Below, piece after piece: positions 5,227 to 30,170 of a stretch of 64,000 bases of DNA. Numbering within the stretch: position 1 is the first letter of the stretch; each line of letters starts with the position of its first letter. The DNA is from Riemerella columbina DSM 16469 (GTDB lineage Bacteria; Bacteroidota; Bacteroidia; Flavobacteriales; Weeksellaceae), in assembly GCF_000374405.1 (NCBI RefSeq), contig NZ_KB894240.1, forward strand, positions 7,285-71,284, given 5' to 3'. The notes under the pieces were generated by a model. It ran no database searches, was not told the DNA's origin, and worked only from the letters and a program-made list of their open reading frames with translations. Made by a program: the position numbers and the translations under genes.

Positions 5227-6366
5227 CTATCTGGCACTCACAAAATTTTGTACTACCGATTTTATACGCGCTCTATCTTCATCCGTCATATTAGAGCCAG
5301 AGGGCAGACACAAGCCATCATTAAATAATTGCTCTGCTACTTTTTCTCCATAATAAGGTGCATCAGCAAATACGGGTTGTAAGTGCATCGGTTTCCATAG
5401 AGGGCGTGATTCTATATTTTCTTCTAATAAGCGTAAGCGTAAATCTTCTCTGGTAAAACCTGCTTTTTCAGGATTAACAACAATCGCCGAAAGCCAATGA
5501 TTGGAAAAGTAATCTTCTGATGGCTCACTAAACACCTCTACTCCATCGATATCTTTAAACAGCTCCACATAAAAATCATGATTGGCTCGGCGTTGTGTAA
5601 CACGCTCATCTAATACTTCCATTTGTCCACAACCTATCCCCGCACAAATATTACTCATACGGTAATTATAGCCAATCTCTGAGTGCTGGTAGTGTGGGGC
5701 ATTATCTCTTGCTTGGGTAGATAAAAACACCGCCTTGTCTTTTTCTTCCTTAGTTTGACAAACCAAAGCCCCTCCACCTGAAGTCGTGATGATTTTATTG
5801 CCATTGAAACTTAAAATACCCATTTCGCCAAAAGTTCCACATTTTTGTCCTTTATAAGTGCTTCCCAATGCTTCGGCCGCATCCTCAACAATCGGAATAT
5901 CGTATTTGGAAGCCACTGCCATCAATTCATCCATTTTGGCAGGCATTCCGTATAGATGCACTACGATGATTGCTTTTGGCTTCTTACCTTTAGAAATACG
6001 GTCTTCTATCGCTTGCTCCAGTGCTTTGGGACACATATTCCAAGTATCTTTTTCGCTATCTACAAAAATGGGGGTCGCTCCTTGATACACAATCGGATTT
6101 GCTGATGCAGAAAAAGTCATACTCTGACAAATCACCTCATCGCCTGCTTTTACGCCTAAGATGATGAGTGCTAAGTGTAAAGCGGCTGTTCCTGCACTTA
6201 ATGCTGCTACCTCAACTTCTTGTGACAAATAGTTTTTTAAATCATTTTCAAATTGATTGACATTAGGTCCTAATGGTGCTACCCAATTTTCAGCAAATGC
6301 CTCGTTGATATACTTTTGCTCATTTCCTCCCATATGTGGTGAAGAGAGCCATATTTTTGTGTTCAT
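5227..6366 (-). CDS. DegT/DnrJ/EryC1-type sugar aminotransferase (PglE-like)
   Basis: PLP-dependent aminotransferase, 379 residues, that would aminate a 4-keto nucleotide sugar. The PLP-lysine is in SFNGNKIITTSGGGA, and DAAEALGSTYKG is the cofactor-contacting segment. The N-terminus (KIWLSSPHMGGNEQKYI) resembles PglE/WlaK-type UDP-4-amino-sugar aminotransferases. It lies immediately beside PglD-like and PglC-like genes, with a PglF-like dehydratase at the other end of the locus. The likely reaction is therefore UDP-4-keto-6-deoxy-GlcNAc to the 4-amino sugar, on the way to N,N'-diacetylbacillosamine. Substrate assignment is inference. Confidence 0.85.
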   Translation of the reverse strand: MNTKIWLSSPHMGGNEQKYINEAFAENWVAPLGPNVNQFENDLKNYLSQEVEVAALSAGTAALHLALIILGVKAGDEVICQSMTFSASANPIVYQGATPIFVDSEKDTWNMCPKALEQAIEDRISKGKKPKAIIVVHLYGMPAKMDELMAVASKYDIPIVEDAAEALGSTYKGQKCGTFGEMGILSFNGNKIITTSGGGALVCQTKEEKDKAVFLSTQARDNAPHYQHSEIGYNYRMSNICAGIGCGQMEVLDERVTQRRANHDFYVELFKDIDGVEVFSEPSEDYFSNHWLSAIVVNPEKAGFTREDLRLRLLEENIESRPLWKPMHLQPVFADAPYYGEKVAEQLFNDGLCLPSGSNMTDEDRARIKSVVQNFVSAR

Positions 6367-6369
6367 ATT

Positions 6370-6969
6370 TTATATTTTCTTTACTTTAATTATTTTCCCT
6401 GGATTACCTACAACAGTTGCACCATCTGGTACATCTTTAATAATTACTGCACCTGCACCTATTGTTGCCCATTTGCCTATTTTAATTTTGGGTATTACGC
6501 TGGCTCCTATACCAATGTGCGTCCCCTCTCCAACAGAAACATTGCCCGCCAAAGCGGCATTAGGTGAAATGTGTACAAAATCTTGGATTTGGCAATCGTG
6601 CTCCACAATAGCAGAAGTATTTATAATACAGTGTTTTCCTATTTTAGCATCGGAATTTACAACTGCATTAGCCATAACCACAGTACCTGCGCCAATTTTT
6701 GATTTATGGGAAATAACGGCATTTTTATGAATGGCTATTTGATATTGGAATTTGTATTTTTCAGCAAAAATTTTCCTTACATTATTATTCCCAATTGCAA
6801 TGATTGCTTCTAATTTTTCATCTGGCAATAGGTTATTTTTTTTAACAGGAATTCCATACAAATCCTCGTGTTTAGGATTATCCTCATAAACTGCCTGAAT
6901 ATGAATATCATTGCCTTGCAAAATATCCAAAATAACTTTTGCGTGTCCTCCTGCTCCAAATAAAATCAT
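6370..6969 (-). CDS. NeuD/PglD-type sugar acetyltransferase
   Basis: 199-residue acetyl-CoA-dependent acyltransferase. It has an N-terminal Rossmann-like sugar nucleotide domain (GAGGHAKVILDIL near residue 5) and a left-handed beta-helix of hexapeptide repeats (about 90-190). His in VEHDCQIQDF is the expected catalytic base region. The PglD type N-acetylates UDP-4-amino-sugars. It lies 3 bases upstream of the PglE-like start, and its own ATG overlaps the stop of the preceding gene, which indicates translational coupling within the operon. Confidence 0.85.
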   Translation of the reverse strand: MILFGAGGHAKVILDILQGNDIHIQAVYEDNPKHEDLYGIPVKKNNLLPDEKLEAIIAIGNNNVRKIFAEKYKFQYQIAIHKNAVISHKSKIGAGTVVMANAVVNSDAKIGKHCIINTSAIVEHDCQIQDFVHISPNAALAGNVSVGEGTHIGIGASVIPKIKIGKWATIGAGAVIIKDVPDGATVVGNPGKIIKVKKI

Positions 6970-7574
6970 TATAAATTACCTTTAAATTCTTCCGAAGTGG
7001 CTTGTCCTTGCTCGTTGATACCTTCGGACTTTACCACCTTCAAAATGGTTAGAAATATTATTTTTAAATCTAACAAAAAACTGATGTTCTCTACATACCA
7101 AACATCGTACTCAAACTTCTTCTCCCAACTGATGCTATTCCTACCATTGACTTGTGCCCAGCCTGTAATACCGGGCTTCACTTCATTTCTTCTTCGTTGG
7201 AAATCATTGTAAAGTTGCAAATATTCTGGCAAAAGTGGGCGAGGTCCAACGAGGGACATATCGCCTTTTATAACATTGAGCAATTGGGGAATTTCATCTA
7301 AGGAAGTTTTTCTTACAAATCGCCCTATTTTCGTTAATCGTTCTGCATCGGGTAATAAGTTTCCATTTGCATCTTTTTTGTCATTCATCGTTTTGAATTT
7401 GATGATTCTAAAAATACGCTCATTCTTTCCTGGTCGTAACTGAAAGAAAAAAGGTTTCCCCTCATTAGCAATTACCAACAAAACGGTTACTATCAAAAAT
7501 ATAGGCAATAAGATTACAAAACCTATTAGGGATAGGGAAAAATCTAGTAATCGTTTAATGTAATTTTTGTACAT
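6969..7574 (-). CDS. Priming phosphoglycosyl transferase (PglC-like)
   Basis: Monotopic phosphoglycosyl transferase, 201 residues from the chosen start, that would load the first sugar phosphate onto undecaprenyl phosphate. One N-terminal membrane segment (about 10-30) is followed by KFKTMNDKKD, the catalytic Asp-Glu dyad in SLDEIPQLLNVIKGDMS, and GPRPLL. The ATG at 7574 (MYKNYIKRLLDF) is preferred over the in-frame start at 7619. It leaves a 4-base gap after the upstream stop instead of a 41-base overlap, and MYK-like starts are usual for the family. With PglD/E/F-like neighbours, diNAcBac-phosphate is the likely substrate. Confidence 0.85.
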   Translation of the reverse strand: MYKNYIKRLLDFSLSLIGFVILLPIFLIVTVLLVIANEGKPFFFQLRPGKNERIFRIIKFKTMNDKKDANGNLLPDAERLTKIGRFVRKTSLDEIPQLLNVIKGDMSLVGPRPLLPEYLQLYNDFQRRRNEVKPGITGWAQVNGRNSISWEKKFEYDVWYVENISFLLDLKIIFLTILKVVKSEGINEQGQATSEEFKGNL

Positions 7575-7578
7575 GATT

Positions 7579-8634
7579 TTAGTTAATTGACTTAAAAAAT
7601 AAATAAAGTTGAACCCCAAAGATAAGCAAGGTTTGTAATATAATAAGATTTCTTTTGAAAGTTTGCTTACTAATACTTAAGGCATAAACAACTATAAAAG
7701 TATTCGACAGCATCATATATCTCGAAAAAGTATTTGGAAAAAGCACACAGACCAAACAAGGGACTACTACTAACATAAAATATTTATTATAGATTAGATA
7801 CGACTTAATATCCCTATAAAATAGTATAAAAAAACTAATCATTAAACTGTATGTGTATAAAAAGAATAAAAATATTGATTCCCATTCCCTTTCATATAAT
7901 AACTTGATAAAAATATCTGTCTTCCTTATGTAAAAATCGACTTTTAGAAAAAGATTGTATGGCAACACACTTTCTAAATATTTGGTTGGCATTAATTTTA
8001 CCAATACAATCAAAAAACAAAGAATAATGGAAATTAAATATTGTAGTTTTAAAATTTTCGATTTACTCCATCCAATTCTTAACAAAAAAAAGAAACTAAT
8101 AAAGACTAATAAATAGATATAAGTACTATAGTGAAACAATCCAGCATATAACAATAATAATATTGTAATCCAGTATTTCTTCTTATGAATAAAAACAAAA
8201 GATAGAGCTACAAAAGATAAGGCATGAATATTCCGAACTCCTGAAAGAATTGCAAATAAATTTAATGAACAAAAAATAATGAAATATAAAAGAGTAGGAG
8301 GATTTTGTTTAACACATTGGCGATAGATATAACGAAAAATATATAAAAAATTGAAGACTGTAATATAAGTTACTGGCAAAAAAAACAGAAAAATAGGCAA
8401 ATTTAATTTTGCTAATAACAATAGCCAAACAAGAGGTATATAATCAGGACTTTTGATAAATACCTTTTGAATTTTAATACTTAATAAATCAAAATCACCA
8501 AAAACAGAATAATATCCATAGAAGTGATTTAAATCATAAGTAGGTGGTGGCGTATATAAGCATATACCTATAGCATAGATAAGAGGCAATAAAAAAAATA
8601 CTATCTCCTTATTTAGATTTTTATTGGATTCCAT
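7579..8634 (-). CDS. EpsG-family polytopic membrane protein, second polymerase candidate
   Basis: 351-residue integral membrane protein with about ten hydrophobic helices. An early periplasmic segment contains TPPPTYDLNHFYGYYS, and SGVRNIHALSFVALSF lies mid-protein. This layout resembles EpsG-like proteins, thought to polymerise or help export exopolysaccharide. A separate Wzy-like protein is encoded at 10919, so this one could be a second polymerase or a length/linkage factor. The overlap with the upstream GT4 gene (8621-8634) marks tight operon packing. Sequence is very AT-rich. Family call moderate; exact function unknown. Confidence 0.6.
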   Translation of the reverse strand: MESNKNLNKEIVFFLLPLIYAIGICLYTPPPTYDLNHFYGYYSVFGDFDLLSIKIQKVFIKSPDYIPLVWLLLLAKLNLPIFLFFLPVTYITVFNFLYIFRYIYRQCVKQNPPTLLYFIIFCSLNLFAILSGVRNIHALSFVALSFVFIHKKKYWITILLLLYAGLFHYSTYIYLLVFISFFFLLRIGWSKSKILKLQYLISIILCFLIVLVKLMPTKYLESVLPYNLFLKVDFYIRKTDIFIKLLYEREWESIFLFFLYTYSLMISFFILFYRDIKSYLIYNKYFMLVVVPCLVCVLFPNTFSRYMMLSNTFIVVYALSISKQTFKRNLIILQTLLIFGVQLYLFFKSIN

Positions 8635-9772
8635 TTAGCAGTTCTTGATAATTAGCTAATAACTCATTCCATACCAATCTCTGTTGATATCGACTCTCTA
8701 TCATTTTCCTACTTTGGCTCTTCAATTGATTATATAACTGATTGTCATTTACTAATTGTTCCATAGCTGATTGTAAAGCCTCCGTGTTTTTTGGATGAAT
8801 TATGATTCCATTTTTATAATTTATAATAATTTCATTACAACCATTAATATCAGAAACTATACTTGGTAATCCCATGGCTCCTGCTTGCATCACAACATTT
8901 GGAAATCCTTCACGATAACTTGGAAAAACCAAAGCATCCGCAATCGCGAAATATGGGCGAACATCTTTTTGGTAACCAACTGCAAGGATATTATCGTTAA
9001 TTCCTATTTCTTCAATAGTTTTCTGAAGCAAAGGGTCTAATTCTCGCTCTTCAGCACCAACTAATAGTAGTTTTATATTATGATTCTGTATTTTTTTAAA
9101 GGCTTCTACTAATTCATTAATTCCTTTATCACCAACCAATCTTCCTACAAAGATATAAACAAAATCATTTTCTTGTATTCCTAATTCTGTTTTTAAATTT
9201 TGTTTGCTCTCTTCACTTATCTGTTGATGTGAAAAATAATTAGTGTTAATACCATTTACATTTCCGTTTGCTATGACTTTAAGTGGTTTACGAGTAATCT
9301 TATATTTTATCAAATCTTCCTTCACCCCTCTACCTTCTGGATATATGTGAGTAGCACACATACATAAAAGGCGATCCATATAAATCAATATTTTTTGTAT
9401 TCCTCCCTTTCTAGAAGGAAAAATCAAACCTGTAAATGTATGTATTCGAATAGGGACTCCTGCAAATTTAGCCGCTAACATAGAAAGTAATCCTGCCTTT
9501 GGGGTAATAGAATGTACGATTTGTGGCTTTTCCCTTTTAAAAAATAAAAAAAGTTGAAACAAAGAAATTATATCATTTAACAAAGATATATTTCTCTTTA
9601 TCTCAATAGGATGAACTCTAACCCCTTCACGAACTTCTACACTTTCCAAATCTTTTCCAGCTCCTGAAACTGCCACTACATCAAAATATTGATTGAGAAA
9701 TCTCAACTGTCCTTTAAGTAAAATATTCAAGGAAACAGGAACTGTAGATAAACGTACTAATTTAGGTTTCAT
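8621..9772 (-). CDS. GT4-family glycosyltransferase
   Basis: Cytoplasmic or membrane-associated retaining glycosyltransferase of GT-B fold, 383 residues. The acceptor-side half carries HSITPKAGLLSMLAA and HTFTGLIFPS, seen in PglA/CapM/EpsD-like enzymes. The donor half has FVGRLVGDKGINELVEAF (about 208-225) and SYREGFPNVVMQAGAMG. The usual EX7E motif reads Glu288...Gln296, so the second glutamate is replaced; I recall Gln variants in related Bacteroidota enzymes, so this is not taken as inactivation. It probably adds the second or a later sugar of the repeat unit. It overlaps the next gene upstream by 11 bases. Confidence 0.82.
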   Translation of the reverse strand: MKPKLVRLSTVPVSLNILLKGQLRFLNQYFDVVAVSGAGKDLESVEVREGVRVHPIEIKRNISLLNDIISLFQLFLFFKREKPQIVHSITPKAGLLSMLAAKFAGVPIRIHTFTGLIFPSRKGGIQKILIYMDRLLCMCATHIYPEGRGVKEDLIKYKITRKPLKVIANGNVNGINTNYFSHQQISEESKQNLKTELGIQENDFVYIFVGRLVGDKGINELVEAFKKIQNHNIKLLLVGAEERELDPLLQKTIEEIGINDNILAVGYQKDVRPYFAIADALVFPSYREGFPNVVMQAGAMGLPSIVSDINGCNEIIINYKNGIIIHPKNTEALQSAMEQLVNDNQLYNQLKSQSRKMIESRYQQRLVWNELLANYQELLNGIQ

Positions 9773-10922
9773 GTTGTGTAATTGCTATTACTTTTTTAAA
9801 ATCTTGATAAATAGACTCTATAAAAAAAAACTCTGATCTCATTAAAGATTGTTGACTATAATATCTTCGTACATCACTATTGTTTTGATAATATTGTATA
9901 GCTTTTATCAATGCTTCTACATCATTAACATTAGTTAATAAACCATATTTTGCTTTATAAAAAGTGCCTTTTTCAATTTTAATCTCTTGTCCTTCATTTA
10001 ATAATTCTAAAGGACCTGATAAACAATTGGTTGATATAACCGGTAATCCTACACTCATTGCTTCTAACAACGCATTAGGAAAACCTTCAGAGTCTGAACT
10101 AAGGATAAAGATGTGATAGTCTAACAAGTCATTGAGTACTTTTTTGGATATACCTGGTAAATATACACGCTCACTTAGATTCCTTCTCTCTATTTCATTT
10201 CTATAATTACCACGTAAAGTACCTTCTCCAATAATTGTTAAAGTAGCATTCCTAATCTGTTCTATTGCCTTAAACAGAAGGCTATGGTTTTTCACTTGCT
10301 CAAATCTACCAACAGAAACAATTTTTATTGCTCCATCTTCATTTGTGATTTTTTGGACATTATGGCTTTTAATTGGCTTTTCGATAGGGTTATATAGTGT
10401 CTTTATTGGAATCGTAACATCGAAATTTTGTTTTAAATCCTGATTGATATAATATGAATTAGAAAATAAAACATCTGCCTTATTATACAATTTCTTTATT
10501 AATAATTTAGATAGCCAAAGTCTAACCCATGAAGTATTGTACATCTTTGAAGGATAGTTTCGCTCACTCATCAACACCTTTATATCTGAATTTTTGTTTT
10601 TGACCATACCATTAATAATATTAGCTCTAAATAGAAAGGATATGGATATCTTTATCTGTTCTTTTTTTAAAAATTGAACATATTTTCTGTATATAACTAA
10701 TGGGCTGACCATTCTTCGCCATAAGCCATTCTTATGGTTAGAATAATTAGTGATGACCTTAACTTCAGAAGGAATTATATAGTGAATTGTGGGATAGAAT
10801 AAATATAAATACACATCATACTCTTTTATCAACTCTGGCAATAGCAGACTAATTACCTTTTCTGCTCCACCATGCCCCATTGAAAGAGTCAATATAGATA
10901 GTTTGGGTTTATCAATCTTCAT
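9762..10922 (-). CDS. GT4-family glycosyltransferase
   Basis: 386-residue GT-B glycosyltransferase. The N-terminal loop LTLSMGHGGAEKVI is typical of GT4 enzymes. The donor domain has VGRFEQVKNHSLLFKAI and a complete EX7E motif, EGFPNALLE, followed by AMSVGLPVIST. It should add one sugar to the lipid-linked repeat unit; sugar and linkage cannot be read from sequence. It overlaps both neighbours (11 bases downstream, 4 bases upstream), consistent with a single translationally coupled operon. Confidence 0.85.
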   Translation of the reverse strand: MKIDKPKLSILTLSMGHGGAEKVISLLLPELIKEYDVYLYLFYPTIHYIIPSEVKVITNYSNHKNGLWRRMVSPLVIYRKYVQFLKKEQIKISISFLFRANIINGMVKNKNSDIKVLMSERNYPSKMYNTSWVRLWLSKLLIKKLYNKADVLFSNSYYINQDLKQNFDVTIPIKTLYNPIEKPIKSHNVQKITNEDGAIKIVSVGRFEQVKNHSLLFKAIEQIRNATLTIIGEGTLRGNYRNEIERRNLSERVYLPGISKKVLNDLLDYHIFILSSDSEGFPNALLEAMSVGLPVISTNCLSGPLELLNEGQEIKIEKGTFYKAKYGLLTNVNDVEALIKAIQYYQNNSDVRRYYSQQSLMRSEFFFIESIYQDFKKVIAITQHET

Positions 10923-12232
10923 TTATAAAATTTTACTTTTCTAAATAAAATAAGGTATATCAATAAAATATAGAAGGGTATAGATCCTTGTATTATCAAT
11001 GATATATCACCATTTTGTAAAGCGTACCATAAGTGATTGAACAAAAATAAGTAAATAAAAAATAATATCCCACTATTAGTAAAACTACTTCTTGAAAAAC
11101 TCTTATCTATCATCTTAAGAAGAACTCCTGCTATGAAACTCTGCATCATTACTAACAATAGACCTCCGTTAATAAATCCTAAACCTACAAAGCCTGGTGG
11201 AATAACACTCTTCCAATTTCCCATAATCATATAGGTATTATAATAAGAAATCGCATCAAAATCAGTAGATTGAGGGTAGATAAGTTTCAGAGGTTTTAAC
11301 ATCCAAATATAATAATCTGATAAATATCTATAATCAAAATTAGATTGTATAAAATTGGTAACGCTATATGTTTGATGATTAAATTCTTGAAAAAACAAAC
11401 TTAGAAATCCTATCTTTTCTTGATTTGCCCTTACATCATCAAAAGTTATATTTATCGAATCAGAAAACATTACAAACAAAAATGTTTTTCCAAATATCAC
11501 TATAAAAAGTGAAGAAAAAACTAAAAGAAACAAATAGATCCATTTAATTTTTCTAGTTTTCAAAAAGTAATATGCTAAAAATACATAAATAAAGATAGAA
11601 ATAAACCCTGCACGCCCACCACCTAAAAAAGATATAACTAAAAGTATAAACAAGGTTAATAATAACATTGCTTTTTTCTTGAATTGTCTTGTGTACTTTC
11701 CTTTAAAGTATAAATATAATTGTAAAATAAAAGAATAAATAATAAAAACTGAAAATATCCTAAAAAAAGCGCCCAAATAGTTTTTATTATCATCTGCTCC
11801 ATAGCGAATTTCATTCACATTATTAATAATATAATTTATTCCTCCATAAAGATAAACATATATCAAGTAAGAAAAAGAACCTATAATCAAAAGAACTCTT
11901 GCTGTATTAAAAAGCCTTTCGTCTTTAAAAGTCGACACTTTAATAAGAACGCCTCTACCTTTGTGAAAGAAATACCCTGCTATTAAAAAAAGGTATCCTA
12001 ATAAAAATATAATTGATTCGTATAAATAGTCACTATCATTAGCTAAACGACGATATAAGTGATAAATATTACGACTATCATATATAAGAGCCAAAGGTAC
12101 CACGGCATAGATAAATGTGTACCAAAGTAGAATATAATCAAATAATTTGATATTTCTATTATAATAACTATTTGATATAATAAGTACCGAGCAAACAATG
12201 ATAATTAAAAACAAACATATAGAGGCTATCAT
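10919..12232 (-). CDS. Wzy-like O-antigen/capsule polymerase
   Basis: 437-residue protein with about 11-12 predicted membrane helices, an N-terminal helix directly at the start, and a large loop (about 255-350) between helices, as in Wzy and O-antigen polymerase family proteins. The segment ISFLGGGRAGFISIF fits the arginine-containing periplasmic motif often seen in Wzy proteins. It would join lipid-linked repeat units in the periplasm. Position between flippase-side genes and glycosyltransferases supports this. Wzy sequences are poorly conserved, so the call rests on topology and context. Confidence 0.75.
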   Translation of the reverse strand: MIASICLFLIIIVCSVLIISNSYYNRNIKLFDYILLWYTFIYAVVPLALIYDSRNIYHLYRRLANDSDYLYESIIFLLGYLFLIAGYFFHKGRGVLIKVSTFKDERLFNTARVLLIIGSFSYLIYVYLYGGINYIINNVNEIRYGADDNKNYLGAFFRIFSVFIIYSFILQLYLYFKGKYTRQFKKKAMLLLTLFILLVISFLGGGRAGFISIFIYVFLAYYFLKTRKIKWIYLFLLVFSSLFIVIFGKTFLFVMFSDSINITFDDVRANQEKIGFLSLFFQEFNHQTYSVTNFIQSNFDYRYLSDYYIWMLKPLKLIYPQSTDFDAISYYNTYMIMGNWKSVIPPGFVGLGFINGGLLLVMMQSFIAGVLLKMIDKSFSRSSFTNSGILFFIYLFLFNHLWYALQNGDISLIIQGSIPFYILLIYLILFRKVKFYK

Positions 12233-13227
12233 ATATTATTTTTTATTATCTTTATAAAATCCTCCACTCTCAACAATCTAGAACCAAATAGATTAAACTC
12301 TCCTTCTTGAAATTCATAATCCTTACCATTCCATAAAAAGCGTCCTGGTTTTCCATCAATATACATTTGTGAGTTTAAATAAGAGCCAAACATTGTTTGT
12401 ATCTCATTTATAAAATATTCTCCGGATTTTGTTTCGAAAATATCAACTGCCATACTCCTAAAGTTTCCTTTTTCACAAAGCTCTCTGGTCATATCTAGCA
12501 ATTCTCTTGGTGGTTCAACCCATCCAACAGCATCTGAACCACTCGCAAAATTTCCTTTTAAAAGTTTCTGGTGTCCGAAATAAGAATCCCCAATCTTAAT
12601 AATTCGCCATTCGTGAATTATAGGTTTAAAGTCTTGAACTAATAAATAAAACTTTTGCAAATTTGCAAAATCAGGAAAAATTTTTAATCCGAAAAATTTA
12701 TTGATATAAATTTTACCTATATTTAAACTTCTTATTTTCTCTGTTAAAGGGAATACTGAGAAAGTAAAATATTTAGCGTACCATTTATTTTTTACTATTT
12801 TTACCTTTGACGAACCCGCTCCTAAATTAGACTTAAATACCAAAGGATAATCAGCATTGTTAAGAAAATTTACAGCTTCTTTTTTATTCGTAAAAACTCT
12901 TGTATGCACATGTGGAAAGCCATTGGCTTCTAACCAAGCCGCCATATTTCTCTTATTCTCATGTATATACAACTCTTGAAAGCTTGGATAAATGGGACGC
13001 TTGAGAATTTGTTCAATCGTATAATGACGCTCATCTAAAATACTTTTTCTTTCTATAGAATCACAAGTAGAAGTACATAAAAAACCATCTGCGTTAGAAT
13101 TCTTGATATTTTTAAGCCAATCTGCACTTAAAAAATCTATTACTTCATAGTCAACACCTATATATTTACAAGCTTCTATATATTTTTTATGTTCGCCAGA
13201 AAACGATGTTAATATTCCTAGTTTCAT
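12229..13227 (-). CDS. ATP-grasp ligase (RimK-like) in the polysaccharide locus
   Basis: 332-residue predicted carboxylate-amine ligase. The ATP-binding lysine and glycine-rich loop are in FKSNLGAGSS (131-140). A central EWRIIKIGDSYFGHQK segment (206-221) and the metal-binding DIFETKSGEYFINEIQ (262-277) complete the ATP-grasp pattern. Such enzymes join a carboxylate to an amine through an acyl phosphate. It overlaps the polymerase gene by 4 bases and follows an opine dehydrogenase at 6 bases. A plausible role is to amide-link an amino acid or opine to a uronic acid carboxyl on the nucleotide sugar or polymer. That role is inference; the ATP-grasp fold is well supported. Confidence 0.78.
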   Translation of the reverse strand: MKLGILTSFSGEHKKYIEACKYIGVDYEVIDFLSADWLKNIKNSNADGFLCTSTCDSIERKSILDERHYTIEQILKRPIYPSFQELYIHENKRNMAAWLEANGFPHVHTRVFTNKKEAVNFLNNADYPLVFKSNLGAGSSKVKIVKNKWYAKYFTFSVFPLTEKIRSLNIGKIYINKFFGLKIFPDFANLQKFYLLVQDFKPIIHEWRIIKIGDSYFGHQKLLKGNFASGSDAVGWVEPPRELLDMTRELCEKGNFRSMAVDIFETKSGEYFINEIQTMFGSYLNSQMYIDGKPGRFLWNGKDYEFQEGEFNLFGSRLLRVEDFIKIIKNNI

Positions 13228-13233
13228 AATAAC

Positions 13234-14430
13234 TTAACTAATTAGTTCTTTAATTGAAGTATACCCATAAACATCAGGCGTTCCATACAAAAATTTCTCA
13301 TTATTTCTTATGTTTATTTTTTCATTACTATCAATAATTGTATCATCAATTACATTTCCTGCCCACTTTAAAATTTTATCAATAGTAGGTGTTTTAATTT
13401 CTAATTTTTCCGCCATCCATTTTGCAATTACAATACCATAGTAAATATCGTCATAAAAAAAACGGTGTGTAGCATCAAACACCCATTTACCATCATTATT
13501 TTGAACTACTGGTGTAGGTATTTGTCCCAGTGTTTGTGACTCTGTAAAAGATTCTTTTATATTGGGGCTAGATGAACCATAAGAAAAATGTTCCAAATCT
13601 AAGTAATTCATCATATATTTGAAGTCATGATTAGGAAAACTTTCAATTATTTTTTCTCGAATAAGACTATACTCATTATCTAAGTCCTCAAGAACTTTAG
13701 CGGATAGATCGTCATAGTCACGATAGAAAAACGGCACTTCATCATAAGCATCCCATTGACCTCCTGAGGATAAATACAATCCATACAATCTTGTTTGATG
13801 TATTATCTGATTGTCAACAGATAGCGTTAATGATAAGAAGTTGTCTGCAAGTAAATACTCACCCTTACCAAAATAATTATAGCATAAATCATCAAGTAAA
13901 AGACTTTTTAAATTTTCAAATTCTTCTTTTGGATATACCGCTACAACATTATTTTTTTTACATCCATAATTAATCCCAACTTTACCATACTCCTTAGTTC
14001 TCGTAATCCAAGGTATCAAACCAGATGCAAAATATACAACATTTTTCAAATTGAATTTATCGATTATTTCTTTAACCATCCAATTAAATCCCCCTTGCCC
14101 GTATATTGTACCCACATAGACCTTTTTATCCTTCGAAATATAAGGTGCTATCTGGTGTAATAAATTTCTATATTGGTATACAGGTATACTAAGAATTATA
14201 CAGTCTGCTTCTGGAATAACATCTTTAGGATCCGCTGAAACTTTTTTAATAGTTCCTTTTAGAATATCGTTTACGCTACCATCAGGTAAAGTATACTCCA
14301 TCTCAATAGTCTCTTGCCATTGATCTGGCTTTCTCGTGAAAAGGTTAATTTCATTATTATTTTTGGAAAGTAACGGTATCAATGAATGTGTACTATTACC
14401 ACCTCCAATTATTGTGATTTTATTTTTCAT
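13234..14430 (-). CDS. Octopine/nopaline-type opine dehydrogenase
   Basis: 398-residue NAD(P)-dependent dehydrogenase. The Rossmann domain opens with ITIIGGGNSTHS (5-16). The C-terminal opine dehydrogenase domain contains NQIIH with His211, and THRFFYDDIYYG with Arg323 and Asp327/328. These match in order the His, Arg and Asp residues known in octopine dehydrogenase. Family members reductively condense an amino acid with a 2-oxo acid to give an N-(1-carboxyalkyl) amino acid. It lies between the flippase (11-base overlap) and the ATP-grasp gene, which suggests it makes an opine-type substituent for the polysaccharide. Substrates are unknown. Confidence 0.8.
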   Translation of the reverse strand: MKNKITIIGGGNSTHSLIPLLSKNNNEINLFTRKPDQWQETIEMEYTLPDGSVNDILKGTIKKVSADPKDVIPEADCIILSIPVYQYRNLLHQIAPYISKDKKVYVGTIYGQGGFNWMVKEIIDKFNLKNVVYFASGLIPWITRTKEYGKVGINYGCKKNNVVAVYPKEEFENLKSLLLDDLCYNYFGKGEYLLADNFLSLTLSVDNQIIHQTRLYGLYLSSGGQWDAYDEVPFFYRDYDDLSAKVLEDLDNEYSLIREKIIESFPNHDFKYMMNYLDLEHFSYGSSSPNIKESFTESQTLGQIPTPVVQNNDGKWVFDATHRFFYDDIYYGIVIAKWMAEKLEIKTPTIDKILKWAGNVIDDTIIDSNEKINIRNNEKFLYGTPDVYGYTSIKELIS

Positions 14431-15667
14431 TTTTACTAATTTCGTTATACAAATATACTACTCCTAATCCTAAAAACAATCTAGAAAAGGATAAACTTAT
14501 TGCCCCGCCAATAATTCCTAAATAATATATCAACGGAAAAGATATAGCAAATCCCAGTATAGAAGCATAAAAAGTATTTTTCATTACTAATTTATCTTTT
14601 CTATTAACTATTAAATAGTTAGTCCCAAATATGTTATAGATTGCTATTCCTAAAATTCCTACACATAGTATCCCTAAAATAAATATAGAGTTTTTGTAAT
14701 CAATAGAGAAATAACTAAAAATATATTTTGAAAACAATAAAATTATTATGGCTAACAAACTCGCTATTGATAAAAGCATTTTCTTATATTTAGGAAAAAA
14801 GTTTTTTTGTCTATTCATAAACGGAAAGAAGGCTCTAGATATAACACCTATAAACATTATAGCCATATCTATTATTTTCTTTAATGAATCAAAAATCCCT
14901 GCTGCAGAATTTGATACCATAATACCCAATAAAAAACTTGAGGTATTATTGTATAGTACTGGCATGAATTGATTGATAAAAATGGGGAAGTTATCTTTTA
15001 TTGTCTGGATTATCTTTTTTCTTTTAAGAAAATGGAACTTCACTTTATAATGAAAAAGTATAACCATCAAAGCAATCAGTCCAGAAAATACATATCCTAA
15101 ACTCTGTAGTAAAGGGTAAATCCAAAAATCATTCTTTCCTTTTATAAAAATAAAAACAAGAATTGTAAATAGAATTTTAACTGAAGTATTAATTATTGTA
15201 ATAAACTTCATTTTTTCAATCCCTTGAAAAAACCAATCAGGAAATAAAACATTTCCTATTAATATACCCGTAGAAAGAAAAACAATTTCTTTATAATCAC
15301 TAAATTTTGGTATTAGAAAAACTATCCCTGATATTACCAAAAGCGAAATAACTAAAAATAATAACTTAACTGTCATTATTTTACTAAAAATTAAATCCAG
15401 TTTTTTTTTACTTTCTCTAAAAATGGCGACATCTCTCGTACCAGTAATAGCAAAACTATAATCCGTTAACGATTGAAAATACATCACTAAAGACGCAGCA
15501 ACAACGATAATCCCATAATGATTAAAACCAATGGTTTTTAAAAGATATGGTAATACCACTAAAGGCATTAACAAATTTACAAGTTGCAAAACCCCTAAAG
15601 AAAGAATATTCTCTATTAGGGGTCTGTAGTTCTTATTAGATACTATTTGCCTAAACTTATTAATCAA
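14420..15667 (-). CDS. Wzx-type oligosaccharide flippase
   Basis: 415-residue polytopic protein with about 12-14 predicted helices, of the MOP/polysaccharide transporter superfamily. FNHYGIIVVAASLVMYFQSLTDYS after helix 1 resembles the conserved N-terminal block of Wzx proteins. It would move the undecaprenyl-linked repeat unit across the inner membrane. The start is a TTG: an in-frame TAA lies two codons upstream and the next methionine is residue 34, which would remove helix 1. It follows the WbpO-like gene by 13 bases. Confidence 0.82.
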   Translation of the reverse strand: MINKFRQIVSNKNYRPLIENILSLGVLQLVNLLMPLVVLPYLLKTIGFNHYGIIVVAASLVMYFQSLTDYSFAITGTRDVAIFRESKKKLDLIFSKIMTVKLLFLVISLLVISGIVFLIPKFSDYKEIVFLSTGILIGNVLFPDWFFQGIEKMKFITIINTSVKILFTILVFIFIKGKNDFWIYPLLQSLGYVFSGLIALMVILFHYKVKFHFLKRKKIIQTIKDNFPIFINQFMPVLYNNTSSFLLGIMVSNSAAGIFDSLKKIIDMAIMFIGVISRAFFPFMNRQKNFFPKYKKMLLSIASLLAIIILLFSKYIFSYFSIDYKNSIFILGILCVGILGIAIYNIFGTNYLIVNRKDKLVMKNTFYASILGFAISFPLIYYLGIIGGAISLSFSRLFLGLGVVYLYNEISKNEK

Positions 15668-15680
15668 AACTTATTGATTT

Positions 15681-17003
15681 CTACAACTTACAATCACTTT
15701 CACTCAACACACCTTTCACATCATACACCACTGCACAATCTTTTTTCAATTTTGAAAGATCCAATTCTTTTAACTCTTTATGTGCAACACCTAAAACGAT
15801 AGCATCAAATTTTTTAGATGGTAATTCTTTGGTGCTTTCAATATTGTATTCATGTTGCACTTCATTTGGGCAAGCCCAAGGGTCGTAAGTGGTTACTTTG
15901 ACTCCAAAATCTTCCAAAGCTGTAATCACATCTACAATTTTGGTATTCCTTACATCTGGACAATTTTCTTTAAAAGTTACGCCCAACATCAATACATCCG
16001 CATTGTTCACAGGTATGTCTTTTTTAATCATTGCTTTTACGACTTGTTCTGCCACATATTTACCCATAGAATCATTCAAACGGCGACCCGCCAAAATAAT
16101 CTCTGGATGATAACCATACTCTTGTGCTTTTTGTGCCAAATAGTAAGGATCTACACCAATACAATGCCCACCTACTAAACCTGGCTTGAATGGCAAAAAG
16201 TTCCACTTCGTACCTGCAGCCTCTAATACCGCATGGGTATCTATGTCCATTAGATTAAAAATCTTAGCCAACTCATTTACAAATGCGATATTAATATCTC
16301 TTTGCGAGTTTTCAATCACTTTTGAGGCTTCTGCCACTTTAATCGTTGGTGCTAAATGCGTTCCTGCGGTGATGACTGATTTATATAAATCATTCACTAA
16401 TTCTCCAATTTCTGGTGTAGAACCTGAGGTAACTTTCAAAATTTTCTCCACCGTATGTTCTTTATCCCCAGGATTGATACGCTCCGGTGAATAGCCTGCA
16501 TAGAAATCTTTATTAAATTTCAGTCCAGAAACTTTCTCAAGAACTGGAATACAATCCTCTTCCGTCGCACCTGGATAAACAGTAGATTCATAAACAACGA
16601 TATCCCCTTTCTTTAAAACTTTACCTACGGTTTCACTTGCTTTGACTAATGGCATTAAGACTGGTCGATTATTCTTATCTACTGGCGTAGGTACCGTTAT
16701 AATATACACATTTGCTTCTTGAATATCTTCCAATTCTGCAGAGCAATACAATCCTTTCTCAGACTGATTACCAAATGGGTTTTCTTTAACCAATGCAGAT
16801 TGTAATAATTCATCGGAAACTTCTAGAGTATCATCATGACCTTCATTCAATTTCTTTACACGCTCTTGATTGATATCAAAACCTACTACTGGATATTTTG
16901 TTGCAAACAACCTTGCCAAAGGCAATCCTACATAACCCAAACCAATGATAGCAATCTTAAGAGGTTTGAGGTGAGAGGTTTGAGGTGTGATATTATTATT
17001 CAT
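15681..17003 (-). CDS. UDP-N-acetylhexosamine 6-dehydrogenase (WbpO/TviB-like)
   Basis: 440-residue nucleotide-sugar dehydrogenase oxidising C6 twice to give a uronic acid. It shows the NAD-binding GLGYVGLPLARLF (about 21-33), YSPERINPGD, and the catalytic cysteine in GGHCIGVDPYYLA. These fit the UDP-GlcNAc/GalNAc (WbpO/TviB) branch. The neighbouring WbpP/TviC-like epimerase supports UDP-GalNAcA (or GlcNAcA) as product. The N-terminal 15 residues before KIAIIGLGYVG are unusual and are encoded by a 14-bp tandem duplication. The ATG overlaps the TGA of the four-helix-bundle gene (ATGA), so translation may be coupled. Confidence 0.9.
   Translation of the reverse strand: MNNNITPQTSHLKPLKIAIIGLGYVGLPLARLFATKYPVVGFDINQERVKKLNEGHDDTLEVSDELLQSALVKENPFGNQSEKGLYCSAELEDIQEANVYIITVPTPVDKNNRPVLMPLVKASETVGKVLKKGDIVVYESTVYPGATEEDCIPVLEKVSGLKFNKDFYAGYSPERINPGDKEHTVEKILKVTSGSTPEIGELVNDLYKSVITAGTHLAPTIKVAEASKVIENSQRDINIAFVNELAKIFNLMDIDTHAVLEAAGTKWNFLPFKPGLVGGHCIGVDPYYLAQKAQEYGYHPEIILAGRRLNDSMGKYVAEQVVKAMIKKDIPVNNADVLMLGVTFKENCPDVRNTKIVDVITALEDFGVKVTTYDPWACPNEVQHEYNIESTKELPSKKFDAIVLGVAHKELKELDLSKLKKDCAVVYDVKGVLSESDCKL
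16960..16987. repeat. 14-bp tandem duplication inside the dehydrogenase N-terminus
   Basis: Two identical copies of agaggtttgaggtg at 16960-16973 and 16974-16987. On the minus strand they encode the non-family leader TPQTSHLKPL of the dehydrogenase. A similar low-complexity tract in inverted sense lies beyond the four-helix-bundle gene at 17380-17425. Confidence 0.7.
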
Positions 17004-17362
17004 AATTTATTTTTTAAAGCTTTTATCAAACTGATTACTTGTTTTCTAACTGTTATAATATGATTTTGTAATAGATTAAATTCTTCTTCAGAAAAATATA
17101 TTAGGCGATAAGCAATCGTTAATTGTGTATCTAACTCACCTAAAGAACCCAACGCAATATATAGAAAATGGATATACTCTTTGAGATATTGTCTCATTGC
17201 ACCTTCTGCAATATTTGAGGGTATGGACACCGCACATCTTCTTATTTGATTTGTCAGCCCGAACCTTTCTTCATTTGGGAAATTGCTACTAAGTTTATAA
17301 GTAACTTCAACCAAATTCATGGCATCTTTCCACACATTCAAATCTCGGTAAGACTTAATCAT
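17000..17362 (-). CDS. Four-helix-bundle protein (S23/intervening-sequence family)
   Basis: 120-residue protein with the family pattern: SYRDLNVWKDAMNLVEVTY at the N-terminus, GLTNQIRRCAVSIPSNIAEG in the middle, and FLYIALGSLGELDTQL near the end. This is the S23/IVP four-helix-bundle family, first found in intervening sequences of 23S rRNA genes and structurally related to the Avd accessory protein of diversity-generating retroelements. No reverse transcriptase or rRNA is nearby. It sits between wbpP-like and wbpO-like genes, which normally work as a pair, with low-complexity repeats on both sides. An inserted selfish or accessory gene is therefore likely; function unknown. Confidence 0.85.
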   Translation of the reverse strand: MIKSYRDLNVWKDAMNLVEVTYKLSSNFPNEERFGLTNQIRRCAVSIPSNIAEGAMRQYLKEYIHFLYIALGSLGELDTQLTIAYRLIYFSEEEFNLLQNHIITVRKQVISLIKALKNKL

Positions 17363-17428: not shown

Positions 17429-18394
17429 CTACAGATTCTCCCAATACCAATCTACTGCTTCTTTTAATCCTTCAGAGAAAATGTGTGTGGGCTCGTATCC
17501 TAAATTTTTCTTGGCTTTATCAATAGACGCTAATGAATGAGGGATATCTCCCATTCTATTAGGTCCGTGTAGAATCTCTACATCGGCAATTTTTTCATCA
17601 TATGCTGCTAGGTATTTTTTTAAAAGATTAGCCATATCTTTAATTGTAGTTCTATCCCCAACGGCCGTATTATAAACCGTATTAATCGCCTCAGGGTTCT
17701 CCGTCAACATTGCCTTTTCATTCATCTGAATCACATTATCGATATAGGTGAAATCTCTTGAATAGGTACCATCTCCGTTAATCGTTGGCGATTGATAATT
17801 CATCAACTGAATTACAAATTTTGGAATAACAGCTGCATAAGCCCCCTTAGGGTCTTGCTTTCTACCAAAAACATTGAAATACCTTAATCCAATGCACTCC
17901 AATCCGTATGTTTTACTAAAAACATCTGCATAGAGTTCGTTTACATATTTTGTAATTGCGTACGGAGATAACGGTTTTCCGATGACATCTTCCTCTTTTG
18001 GTAATGATTTTGAATCTCCATAAGTCGATGAACTTGCCGCATAGACAAATCGTTTGATTTTAGCATCTCTTGCTGCGACCAACATATTTAAAAATCCTGA
18101 AACATTGACATCGTTACTCGTAATAGGATCTTCAATCGAACGAGGAACGGATCCTAAAGCCGCTTGATGCAATACATAATCCTGACCTTCACAGGCTTTT
18201 CGACAAGTTTCTAAATCTCTAATATCTCCTTCAATCAATTTGAAATTGTCGTTATCAAAAAAATATTCAATATTGTGTCGATGTCCCGTAGCAAAATTAT
18301 CTAATACGGTTACTTTATAACCCTTGTCTAAAAAATATTCGGTCAAATTAGAACCTATAAATCCTGCTCCGCCTGTAATGAGTATGTTTTTCAT
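17429..18394 (-). CDS. UDP-GlcNAc C4-epimerase (WbpP/TviC-like)
   Basis: 321-residue extended-SDR epimerase. NAD-binding GGAGFIGSNLTEY is near residue 7, AASSSTYGD gives the catalytic Ser/Thr, and YAITKYVNELYADVF supplies the YxxxK pair. The segment ALGSVPRSIEDPITSNDVN is characteristic of WbpP/TviC enzymes, which interconvert UDP-GlcNAc and UDP-GalNAc or their uronates. With the WbpO-like dehydrogenase it should make an N-acetylhexosaminuronic acid precursor. It starts one base after the autokinase stop. Confidence 0.9.
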   Translation of the reverse strand: MKNILITGGAGFIGSNLTEYFLDKGYKVTVLDNFATGHRHNIEYFFDNDNFKLIEGDIRDLETCRKACEGQDYVLHQAALGSVPRSIEDPITSNDVNVSGFLNMLVAARDAKIKRFVYAASSSTYGDSKSLPKEEDVIGKPLSPYAITKYVNELYADVFSKTYGLECIGLRYFNVFGRKQDPKGAYAAVIPKFVIQLMNYQSPTINGDGTYSRDFTYIDNVIQMNEKAMLTENPEAINTVYNTAVGDRTTIKDMANLLKKYLAAYDEKIADVEILHGPNRMGDIPHSLASIDKAKKNLGYEPTHIFSEGLKEAVDWYWENL

Positions 18395-18395
18395 A

Positions 18396-20771
18396 TTAAA
18401 ATCTATCTTTAATTTTCTCTATAAAACTTTTTTCTTTAGCACCATAGCCATAACCATACTTATTACCATAACCGAAGTTACTTTTATCAACATCATTCAA
18501 AACAAATCCCACATTCTTAATTTTTTGAGCTTTGATATTATTATTTGCAAATCCTACCAAATCTTTATCAGTATAATTTGACCTTGTAACATACAATATC
18601 GCATCAGATAAATCTGAAATTAGGAAAGTATCGGTAACTAACATTAATGGTGCTGTATCCACAATGATATAATCATAAGTGTCCTTTAAATTATTCAATA
18701 ATTCTTCATAACGACCATTGGTTAATAATTCCGTAGGATTTGGTGGAATACTACCCGAATAAATGACATCTAAATATGGATTGTAAGTACTTTGGTATAT
18801 AATACTTTCTAAATTAGTACTAGCATCGTAAAGATATTCCGACAAACCTGCCAAACCTTTTCGAGCTTCATTATACCTTTGCAATTGAGGGTTTCTAATA
18901 TCAGAACCTATAATTATTACCTTTTTATTTGGTGTAGCTAGCGTAAGTGCTAAATTAACCGATGTAAATGTTTTTCCTTCCCCTTTTACCGTAGAGGTAA
19001 CAAATACCGTTTTACCTTTCCCTTTGTTTTTAGGCAGCATAAAATTCATATTGGTAATCAAAATTCTAAAGGCCTCTGCCATAGGGGATAAATCATTAAG
19101 CCCAACAGTTTCTGGCTGACCTTTCTCCACTTTCGGTAATTCCGCTAAAACAGGAGTATTCGACAGTTTTTCAAGATCGTGTTTAGTTTTAACTTTATTA
19201 TCGAATAGTTCTTTAAGATAAATCAATGCAAAAGGAACTAGTAACCCTAATACTAAAGCCGCCAGCAATACAATCATTTTTTTAGGGGATACTGGTTGAT
19301 CTTCAGCGTAGGCAGAATCTAATACACGAGCTTTATTTCCTGTAATCGCTAATGATATAGCCGTTTCTTCTCTTTTTTGAAGTAATAATAGGTACAACTG
19401 CTCTTTTATCTGTTGTTGTCTCTCAATTCCTCTAAATATTTTTTCTATAGAAGGTAGTTTAGATATTTTTCCAGATATTTTATTTTGCTCTCTTTGCAAT
19501 TCTCCACTTTTGATTTGCAATCCAGATCTTGTTTTTTGAAGCGACTGTAGAATAGAAGATTTAAGATTATTCAGTTGTTTGGATATATTCTGTACTGAAG
19601 GGTGTTCTGGTGTAGCAGATGCCAACAATCTATTGCGTTCTAATACCAATTCATTATAAGTGTTAATTCCCGCTGAGGCAGCTGGATTATCCAATCCTAC
19701 GGCTGACGGTAAAATCTGATAAGCTCCTTGATTTCTTAAATAATTGAGGATCCCATCGGTCAATTGAAGCTGAGCATCAATTTCCAATTGTTTTGCTCTA
19801 GCCTCAGTTGTAGTTTTAAGGCTAAGTTCCGCTTCTACCTGTATATCAGTTAATTGATTATTAATTTTAAATTGTTGTTTTTGATTTTCTACATCTCCCA
19901 ACTCTTCAGAGATCACTTTAATACGACTCTCGATAAACTTCATCGTTTCCTGAGACTGAGAATTTTTATCTTCTATCGCATCTGTATTATATGCAACAAC
20001 CAATGTATTAATAATATCTTTGGCTTTATCAATATTAGATGACTTCATAGACAACTGAATCACCGTAGCATCTTTATTCGCTAATGATACATTAAGATTT
20101 TGTTGTAATTGAGACACTCTATTGTCTTTTGAAGCAATATTGAGTTGAATATCCGATACTGGACCTTCTTTATGAGGATCATAGTTTGGATTTTTCTTTA
20201 TAATAATGTTGGCAAAAGGTAAACTAATGGTAGTGTTAAATTTAGTGGATACTTCTTTATCTAACTCTTTAGAAGATAATACAATATCATTTTTGTTTAA
20301 AGTAACATCAATAGGTTTTTCAGGAAAAGATTTATCCTTTTTCTCATTAATAATATAAACTAAGATCGGGCTAGTCGTATCATAGATTTCTTGTCTTTTA
20401 CCATCGACTTTTGCTGTGATTGAAGTTTGCAAATTCTTAGATTCAACCACTTGAGTCATCAACTTTTTAGACTTTAACACCTCAATTTCATTATCAATAC
20501 TGTTGGTGGACATTCCGCCTATTCCAGAAAGGTCTTTTAATAAATCTGCCTCTGATCCAGCAGAAGATGTCTTTGCATCTTTAACTAATATAGTCGACTG
20601 AACATTATAAATTTTTGTAGCGCTTTTTAAATATAAAAAAGCAATAATTAGTGCCAATACTGCGGATATTACAAACCAAAGCCATCTTTGAAGGTAGGGT
20701 TTAATAATTTCTGTAATATTGACTTCTTGTTCCTCAATATTTGAGGTAGATGGAGTAATTTGACTATCCAT
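18396..20771 (-). CDS. wzc: Wzc-like polysaccharide copolymerase/tyrosine autokinase
   Basis: Inner membrane regulator of polymer length and export, 791 residues. The first membrane helix is about 31-48. A long periplasmic region has coiled coils (about 270-340, 395-470), and the second helix is about 499-519. The cytoplasmic BY-kinase follows, with Walker [12 protein letters not shown] (592-602), Walker A' GSDIRNP (622-628) and Walker B IIVDTAPL (702-709). The C-terminus has a tyrosine-rich stretch ([10 protein letters not shown], about 768-777), the expected autophosphorylation cluster. It follows the Wza-like gene by 21 bases. No cognate phosphatase gene is in the window. Confidence 0.92.
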
Positions 20772-20792: not shown

Positions 20793-21599
20793 TTATTTTC
20801 TAATTACGAGTGCTAAAATAGTAACTACGATAGATGCTATAGAGATATAAACTCCCGTCTGAGGACCATATATAGACGAATTAACTTTCGTTTTATTTGG
20901 CGCTACAGCAACCACATCATTCTGTTGAAGGTAGTAATACGGGGAGTTGACAAAATCGCCACTAGTCAAATCCACATAGGCATTAGTCCTAACTCCATCT
21001 TGCTCTCTTATAATTAAAACTCTATCTCTTTTACCATAAATCGTTAAATCGCCTGCCATTCCCAGTGCATCCAGTAATCTTACTTTACCATCAGGAATTA
21101 TGTATTGCCCAGGTTTAGCCACCTCTCCTAGTATGGTCACTTTGTAGTTAGCATATTTAATATTAACTGTTGGATTGATGATATATTTAGAAATTTTATA
21201 TACCAATTCATTTTTTAGGTCTTCAATTGTTTTACCATTAGTATTAACCTTACCGATATAAGGAAAATCAATATATCCTTCGTCATAAACTTTATAAGTA
21301 AATCCAGTAAGAGAGCTTTGATTACTTAAAGCATCGTTCCCAGATGGTGTAGAATAGGTTACTCTTGATGTAGACGGCGTAGTGCCTTGATTAAATGGTG
21401 CCGCTACTGCCATATCTTTCGCTGTAACTAAAATGGTGATCTCATCTCTAGGTTGAATTGTGGATCTAGAATTTTTAATCGCTGCATCAGCAGCCAATTG
21501 CTCTACATCCTGCATATACTCTATATCATTCTTGGATTTACAAGAATTGAGTAATACCATGATCAAACAAAAACTTAATATAATTTCACCTATTTTCAT
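20793..21599 (-). CDS. wza: Wza-like outer membrane polysaccharide export lipoprotein
   Basis: 268-residue lipoprotein with signal peptide and lipobox LLNSC (Cys20). A polysaccharide export (Poly_export) domain begins near RSTIQPRDEITILVTAKD. It continues into SLBB-type segments (GEVAKPGQYIIPDGKVRLLD). A C-terminal hydrophobic helix (about 248-265) ends in RK. This short form, with a terminal membrane helix, is usual in Bacteroidota. It would form the periplasm-spanning and outer membrane export channel and work with the Wzc-like kinase encoded next. Candidate promoter at 21617. Confidence 0.9.
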   Translation of the reverse strand: MKIGEIILSFCLIMVLLNSCKSKNDIEYMQDVEQLAADAAIKNSRSTIQPRDEITILVTAKDMAVAAPFNQGTTPSTSRVTYSTPSGNDALSNQSSLTGFTYKVYDEGYIDFPYIGKVNTNGKTIEDLKNELVYKISKYIINPTVNIKYANYKVTILGEVAKPGQYIIPDGKVRLLDALGMAGDLTIYGKRDRVLIIREQDGVRTNAYVDLTSGDFVNSPYYYLQQNDVVAVAPNKTKVNSSIYGPQTGVYISIASIVVTILALVIRK

Positions 21600-23567: not shown

Positions 23568-23587
23568 TTTCAATCAATTATAAAAAA

Positions 23588-30144: not shown

Positions 30145-30170
30145 CAACCAAATCTTTATTTATAGTCCTA

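Follow-up and report, generated by a model that had tools for sequence, protein, structure and literature searches.

An opine dehydrogenase and an ATP-grasp ligase encoded between wzx and wzy in Riemerella columbina: a candidate gene pair for opine amide decoration of a surface polysaccharide

A polysaccharide locus of Riemerella columbina DSM 16469, contained in a 64,000-nucleotide stretch of contig NZ_KB894240.1 (positions 7,285 to 71,284; the window), carries a gene for an opine (octopine-type) dehydrogenase (ODH) next to a gene for an ATP-grasp ligase. Both open reading frames (ORFs) are on the minus strand and are packed between wzx and wzy: wzx overlaps the ODH gene by 11 bases, 6 bases separate the ODH and ATP-grasp genes, and the latter overlaps wzy by 4 bases. 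This agrees with a first-pass annotation made from the sequence, which had placed the two genes side by side inside a Wzx/Wzy locus. The families, catalytic residues and folds of the two proteins, the operon packing, the repeated occurrence of the cassette and the presence of uronic-acid genes around it are all observed features. We tentatively favour, at slightly less than even confidence, a reading in which an opine made with the ODH is amide-linked by the ATP-grasp ligase to the C6 carboxylate of a uronic acid. The opine-amide reading of the first-pass annotation is partly supported, and the cassette would be a new form of amide decoration of surface glycans.

Opine dehydrogenase

The ODH gene (positions 13234 to 14430) encodes a protein of 398 amino acids. 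In the Pfam scan, its Octopine_DH domain (PF02317) scored 85.3 bits against a cut-off of 30, and PF03807 and PF01210 matched the Rossmann part at residues 4 to 104, both above the cut-off. The Pecten octopine dehydrogenase 3c7a was found as a sequence match (E 7.8e-25). The AlphaFold model (pLDDT 92.3) aligned with the Pecten enzyme 3iqd over 381 residues (Z 40.8, rmsd 3.2), followed by N-(1-carboxyethyl)-norvaline dehydrogenase (Z 36.9) and then metallophore opine dehydrogenases (Z 26 to 31). The catalytic His-Asp pair (His211 and Asp328) and the NADH-sensing Arg (Arg323) were all found and are invariant across 11 aligned ODH rows, window included; in wider alignments the His and Asp were still invariant and the Arg was not. 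The earlier description as an octopine-type dehydrogenase with these three residues is therefore borne out by domain, sequence match, fold and residues. The enzyme is predicted to couple an amine with a 2-oxo acid, using NAD(P)H.

The octopine dehydrogenase of Pecten maximus has the same domain, fold, His/Asp pair and Arg sensor (residue roles as described in PMC2924402), but is only about 21% identical to the window ODH. In the Pecten enzyme, Glu142 and Trp278 contact the guanidinium of the arginine substrate, whose carboxylate is bound by His212 (PMC2924402). Counted on the pairwise alignment, His212 corresponds to window His211, and the position of Glu142 is occupied by Gly137, which is invariant in a four-row alignment of the window ODH clade. 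Trp278 lies where the Pecten protein has an insertion, and has no counterpart. The two guanidinium contacts that characterize octopine dehydrogenase sensu stricto, which uses arginine, are thus missing from the window ODH. Because Glu142 is replaced by Gly137 and Trp278 has no counterpart, arginine is disfavoured and is an unlikely substrate.

ATP-grasp ligase

The neighbouring gene (positions 12229 to 13227) encodes a predicted amide-bond former of 332 amino acids with a LysX/RimK/ArgX fold. Its previous label as a RimK-like ATP-grasp protein was not secured by single-sequence scans: Pfam gave no match for the protein alone at E 0.001, and all NCBIfam matches were below their cut-offs (rimK_fam 26.2 against 143.4 bits, LysX 22.2 against 275.6 bits). 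A nine-row profile and the modelled fold did bear the label out. Against PDB sequences, the profile matched LysX 3vpd (E 2.2e-10) and ArgX 3vpb (E 1.3e-9). The model (pLDDT 74.9, built from a three-row alignment) matched LysX 3vpd (Z 21.7), RimK (Z 21.3) and ArgX (Z 21.0). Since synapsins and D-Ala ligases came next at Z of about 19, the LysX/RimK/ArgX group is the nearest but not the exclusive match.

The residues K92, K132, R208, D262, E275 and Q277 were found in the window ligase. The first five, which we take to be ATP/Mg-binding residues from their roles in the family, are invariant in the nine-row alignment, window included. The window ligase thus has its fold and catalytic residues in common with LysX, ArgX and RimK, but it is only 14 to 16% identical to them over the fold alignments, scores below every NCBIfam cut-off and sits in a polysaccharide locus. 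It is thus related to RimK and LysX by fold but does not belong to their curated families. In LysX, ArgX and RimK, an amino acid is joined via its amine to the carboxylate of the carrier.

Recurrence of the gene pair

A scan of named genomes with the window ODH gave 319 relatives, of which the best 80 were kept, as loci L098 to L177. The closest among these 80 were from Saccharicrinis sp. UBA6048 (L098, 63% identity), a Muribaculaceae metagenome-assembled genome (L100, 52%) and RA.bin96 (L099, 51%). The order wzx, ODH, ATP-grasp is the same in the window, L098 and L099, and the ATP-grasp proteins beside the ODHs are 48% (L098) and 52% (L099) identical to that of the window. These are distant lineages with the same cassette, which is real and recurring; its presence in L098 and L099 rules out chance adjacency. 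The same gene order in three lineages indicates that the ODH and the ligase probably act in one pathway.

Within the family of the window genome, 197 genomes were searched, and an ODH was detected at E 1e-15 only in the window's own; five other genomes of its genus had none at this threshold. In a phylum sample of 395 genomes, 12 other genomes gave only weak ODH matches, none above 27.4 bits and one extending over most of the query, and the PF02317 domain was present in 4 other genomes. The locus region is a variable region, and we infer that the ODH region was gained horizontally. No relative of the ODH or the ATP-grasp protein was confirmed in viral contigs. ODH matches of Serratia and Proteus lie in IucA/IucC-type loci; no such family was found among the scanned window neighbours, and a siderophore reading was rejected. 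Those of Paraburkholderia and Cytobacillus stand in yet other gene settings.

Pairs of other kinds were also found. In L065, from another family of the same class, a distant ODH (15% identical to that of the window) adjoins an ATP-grasp_4 ligase. Homologues of both proteins adjoin in L091 and L096 and are apart in L093, where the parts are spread over about 10 kb. In L092, the ODH adjoins an ATPgrasp_ST ligase. The ODH-ligase loci of the L065 type and that of L092 are surrounded by polysaccharide genes. Since these other ODHs adjoin ligases of other families in polysaccharide loci, opine dehydrogenases and carboxylate-activating ligases appear to have been brought together more than once. A protein family of about 620 amino acids accompanies the ODH and the ATP-grasp_4-type ligase in these loci (L065:7624-9489, L091:7672-9537, L093:14253-16169 and L096:497-2335); Pfam gave no match for it in the three copies scanned (L065, L091 and L093).

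Site of modification and proposed pathway

Each of the four polysaccharide loci in which the ODH clade was found (window, L098, L099 and L100) contains a nucleotide-sugar 6-dehydrogenase gene. Among the best 80 loci it was found in 8 of the 77 others, and in 6 of the 39 of those with at least 20 kb read. The enzyme is TviB-like in the window, TuaD-like in L098 and L099, and a UDP-ManNAc dehydrogenase, above its cut-off, in L100; the TviB-like and TuaD-like proteins score below the cut-offs of the named models but above that of the general NDP-sugar dehydrogenase. Since the 6-dehydrogenase types differ, the constant is the sugar carboxylate. Around other ATP-grasp relatives, a TviB match was found in one of eight presumed polysaccharide-type loci (L054 to L059, L061 and L066). 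These counts, together with the chemistry of the LysX/ArgX/RimK fold, favour the sugar carboxylate as the site of modification and a uronic acid as the acceptor.

The substrates, the order of the steps and the linkage are what we infer, as follows. From pyruvate or another 2-oxo acid and an amino compound, the ODH would make an N-(1-carboxyalkyl) derivative; the amino compound is probably an amino acid, though not arginine. The LysX/RimK-fold ligase would then convert the C6 carboxylate of the hexosaminuronic acid, carried on UDP or on a lipid, into an acyl phosphate and couple it to an amine of the N-(1-carboxyalkyl) compound. The repeat unit bearing the opine amide would be flipped by Wzx and polymerised by Wzy. 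If the ligase uses the alpha amine, the carboxyalkyl group would be on another nitrogen, as in N-epsilon-carboxyethyl-lysine. Lysine as the amine would, by analogy with Providencia rustigianii O14, allow the side chain to be alkylated and still leave the alpha amine free for the ligase.

The O14 polysaccharide of P. rustigianii contains N-epsilon-(1-carboxyethyl)-lysine amide-linked to GalA (PMC10609480), which confirms for this serotype the earlier statement that opine-type lysine derivatives occur in amide linkage to uronic acids in Providencia. The O-antigens of P. rustigianii O14 and P. alcalifaciens O35 both carry N-carboxyethyl amino acids in amide linkage, and the comparison with them is one of chemistry only (PMC10609480). 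An ODH, an amide-ligase candidate and uronic-acid genes, the features expected for a product of the O14 type, are together in one polysaccharide locus in the window, on our own assumption that these features mark the type. A known capsule enzyme of this kind is Cj1438C of Campylobacter jejuni, an ATP-grasp domain that turns the C6 carboxylate of GlcA into an amide (PMC11800379). This C-terminal amidoligase of Cj1438 is, like the window ligase, an ATP-grasp protein of a capsule locus, and its amide is formed on C6 of a uronic acid. However, it is described as TupA-like and as using serinol-P or ethanolamine-P, the likeness drawn here is one of description, and no opine dehydrogenase is mentioned in the available text of the account (PMC11800379).

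Among the open-literature matches listed, which exclude little, there was no paper linking an opine dehydrogenase to a surface polysaccharide and none naming dehydrogenase and ligase genes for the opine amino acids of O-antigens. The words octopine, lysine and ATP-grasp were missing from the available main text of a paper on Proteus O-antigen gene clusters (PMC5560731). Opine-type amino acids are already known in some O-antigens, and a two-gene candidate that can be expressed makes the question of their genes testable. Opine-bearing capsules would become predictable from sequence, and octopine-type dehydrogenases would gain a role beyond those in crown gall, in metallophores and in the anaerobiosis of invertebrates.

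Evidence against the uronamide reading and alternative readings

Several points weigh against the coupling of an opine to the uronic acid. The enrichment of 6-dehydrogenase genes in the ODH-clade loci (Fisher p 0.002, window left out) comes from a post hoc comparison over cut-off neighbourhoods, and most of the 77 loci are unlike in kind. Because the one amine of a usual opine is secondary and hindered, the model calls for a second amine. In L100, an ATP-grasp protein of the window type is missing from the locus (hmmsearch with two profiles, none at E < 0.2) and from the genome (none at E 0.001); these searches rule out that it was overlooked. The ATP-grasp family is also found in loci without this ODH clade.

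Furthermore, the ODH is not tied to glycans. Among 71 genomes of the Saccharicrinis family, an ODH was detected at E 1e-40 in four, that of L098 and three others. The latter (L193:1351-2556, L194:11799-13103 and L196:12373-13587), 49 to 50% identical to the window ODH, had no recognised polysaccharide genes nearby; one of them lies 1.4 kb from a contig start, so that one side is unread, and a pair of the NTP-transferase/CobD-like kind lies about 8 kb from another. In the tree, the seven ODHs (window, L098, L099, L100 and these three) form one clade with support 100/100. The window ODH and L098 are together (99/97), and L100 groups with the three Saccharicrinis-family ODHs outside recognised polysaccharide loci (93/92). 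Since three clade members stand outside such loci, the copies in polysaccharide loci may be recruited metabolic enzymes.

In an alternative that we consider unlikely, the linkage has the opposite direction: the ligase would activate the opine carboxyl and acylate the amine of an amino sugar, for instance a 4-amine made by PglF- and PglE-type enzymes, in the manner of alanopine on Qui4N. P. alcalifaciens O35 has N-(1-carboxyethyl)-alanine attached to that sugar (PMC10609480), and the window contains PglF-, PglE- and PglD-type genes. The window PglD is, however, an ordinary N-acetyltransferase for that amine (TIGR03570 above cut-off). A PglE-like gene is present in just two of the four clade polysaccharide loci (window and L099; not seen in the 34-kb contig of L098 nor in 21 kb of L100), against four of four for the sugar 6-dehydrogenase. 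The L100 ODH comes after a PaaK-like AMP-forming ligase (NCBIfam E 2.5e-20, below cut-off), two genes before which is an AAC(3)-like N-acyltransferase, and this setting is in line with acylation by the opine. So is a sugar-aminotransferase-like ORF that lies within one or two genes of the ODH-ligase pair in L065, L091 and L096 and adjoins the ligase in L093 (the ORFs of L093 and L096 are cut by the stretch end), but the ligases of the L065 type belong to an ATP-grasp family other than that of the window.

It is still less probable that the two enzymes add separate substituents to the same polysaccharide. In that case, the ligase would use an ordinary amine or amino acid to form the amide on the uronic acid, and the target of N-carboxyalkylation by the ODH would be something else, such as an amine already on the glycan or its lipid-linked precursor. 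Ligase relatives do occur in polysaccharide loci without this ODH, in L054 to L056 beside a protein with a weak or no match to GATase_7 (glutamine amidotransferase) and in L067 beside asparagine synthase. The neighbours of ODH relatives include LicD and NTP-transferase/CobD-like fusions, and the substrate of these ODHs may be phosphoethanolamine. Separate roles are disfavoured by the direct adjacency of the ODH and the ligase in the same order in three lineages. A metabolic ODH, serving redox balance or osmolyte synthesis and riding in a serotype region with no glycan role, is very improbable: the three clade relatives outside recognised polysaccharide loci speak for it, but the ORF overlaps wzx and is packed with wzy, it has been retained with its ligase neighbour in L098 and L099, and 196 other genomes of the family gave no match, so it is no part of the family's core metabolism.

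The uronamide model of the first-pass annotation is the best of several readings. The ODH type and the ligase class on which it was built stood, and the 6-dehydrogenase in four of four loci and the recurrence of the cassette were added to them; the amino acid and keto acid used and the carboxyl that is activated are its putative part.

Opine dehydrogenases beside NTP-transferase/CobD-like fusions

In 62 of the best 80 loci, from Bacteroidales and others, the ODH ORF lies at most 300 bp from, or is in one ORF with, an NTP-transferase/CobD-like fusion, the CobD-like part being a PLP domain. Examples are L102:4699-7630, L100:15685-18515 and L117:9998-11788, the last fused to LicD. In L100, the ODH near the fusion is a second dehydrogenase of that locus. 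Thirteen ODH ORFs of the 80 loci also match LicD, and three also match the fusion. CobD (threonine-phosphate decarboxylase) was the best NCBIfam match in all four fusion copies scanned (L103, L097, L102 and L100), each time below the cut-off, and a reading of this neighbour as PntC, for 2-aminoethylphosphonate or other phosphonates, was dropped. The simplest reading is that a phosphoserine decarboxylase and a cytidylyltransferase make CDP-ethanolamine, which the ODH N-carboxyalkylates for LicD. These loci suggest N-carboxyalkyl ethanolamine-phosphate decoration of surface glycans. The substituent 2-(1-carboxyethylamino)ethyl phosphate occurs in Proteus mirabilis O14, and it was found in none of the literature matches listed.

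In the window genome, the fusion drew three matches, none of which extends beyond a single part (315-560, 363-549 or 1-158 of 604). Because no match covers both parts, such a use of the ODH is unlikely in this genome. In a wider scheme, which we regard as doubtful though worth stating, a mobile wzx-ODH-ATP-grasp cassette would put opine amides on the uronic acid of the host locus and would be one branch of an undescribed class of ODH-decorated glycans, the other branch N-carboxyalkylating LicD-carried phosphoethanolamine.

In L054:5886-11898, L055:5388-12363 and L056:7832-13840, the protein adjoining the relatives of the window ATP-grasp ligase has about 577 amino acids. A bi-domain Zn-dehydrogenase/Gfo-Idh oxidoreductase is also near the ATP-grasp relatives in these three loci.

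Other genes of the window locus

The genes for Wzx, Wzy, sugar synthesis and transfer, chain length and export are also on the minus strand. The Wzx flippase gene that overlaps the ODH start (14420 to 15667; PF01943, 152 bits) encodes a protein 31 to 32% identical to the Wzx of L098 and L099. The Wzy polymerase gene that overlaps the ATP-grasp stop (10919 to 12232) was labelled by NCBIfam TIGR04370 only (51.2 bits against a cut-off of 40), the Pfam Wzy match (PF14296) being below the cut-off. The predicted source of the sugar carboxylate is the TviB/WbpO-like 6-dehydrogenase (15681 to 17003; TIGR03026 395.6 bits, above cut-off; PRK15182 TviB 555.9, just below 592). It is accompanied by a TviC/WbpP-like 4-epimerase for UDP-HexNAcA (17429 to 18394; best NCBIfam match PRK15181 TviC, 361 bits, below 760). 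The WbpP/WbpO-like genes noted previously in the locus were thus recovered as TviC/TviB-like by NCBIfam, and are predicted to serve the synthesis of a hexosaminuronic acid. A PF05635 (23S rRNA-intervening-sequence) protein is encoded between them at 17000-17362, and phmmer homologues of it are also present in loci L092, L124 and L184.

The genes of the PglC, PglD, PglE and PglF types are predicted to provide an amino-sugar start. They encode an initiating sugar-phosphate transferase (PglC-like, 6969 to 7619; PF02397, 215.8 bits), a PglD/NeuD-type sugar N-acetyltransferase (6370 to 6969; TIGR03570, 225.6 bits), a PglE/LegC-type sugar aminotransferase (5227 to 6366; PF01041; TIGR04181 404 bits, below 420), which bears on the opposite linkage, and a PglF-type membrane 4,6-dehydratase (21636 to 23573; PF02719, 405 bits). 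The locus further encodes two GT4 glycosyltransferases (9762 to 10922 and 8621 to 9772; both PF00534), an EpsG-type second polymerase-like protein (7579 to 8634; PF14897, 43.3 bits), a Wzc-like chain-length protein/kinase (18396 to 20771; PF13807 and PF13614) and a Wza-like export protein (20793 to 21599; PF02563).

The G+C content was 0.28 to 0.29 over 8 to 16 kb of the window and 0.34 to 0.41 in the first 8 kb; because similar dips occur outside the locus at 40 to 42 and 50 to 52 kb, the drop is weak evidence. In a promoter and terminator scan, the counts were near those of shuffled sequences. The window contains two PF02397 sugar-phosphate transferase genes, the PglC-like one and another at 29566 to 30147 beside RmlA/B/C-like genes. 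These may serve another polysaccharide or one that is shared.

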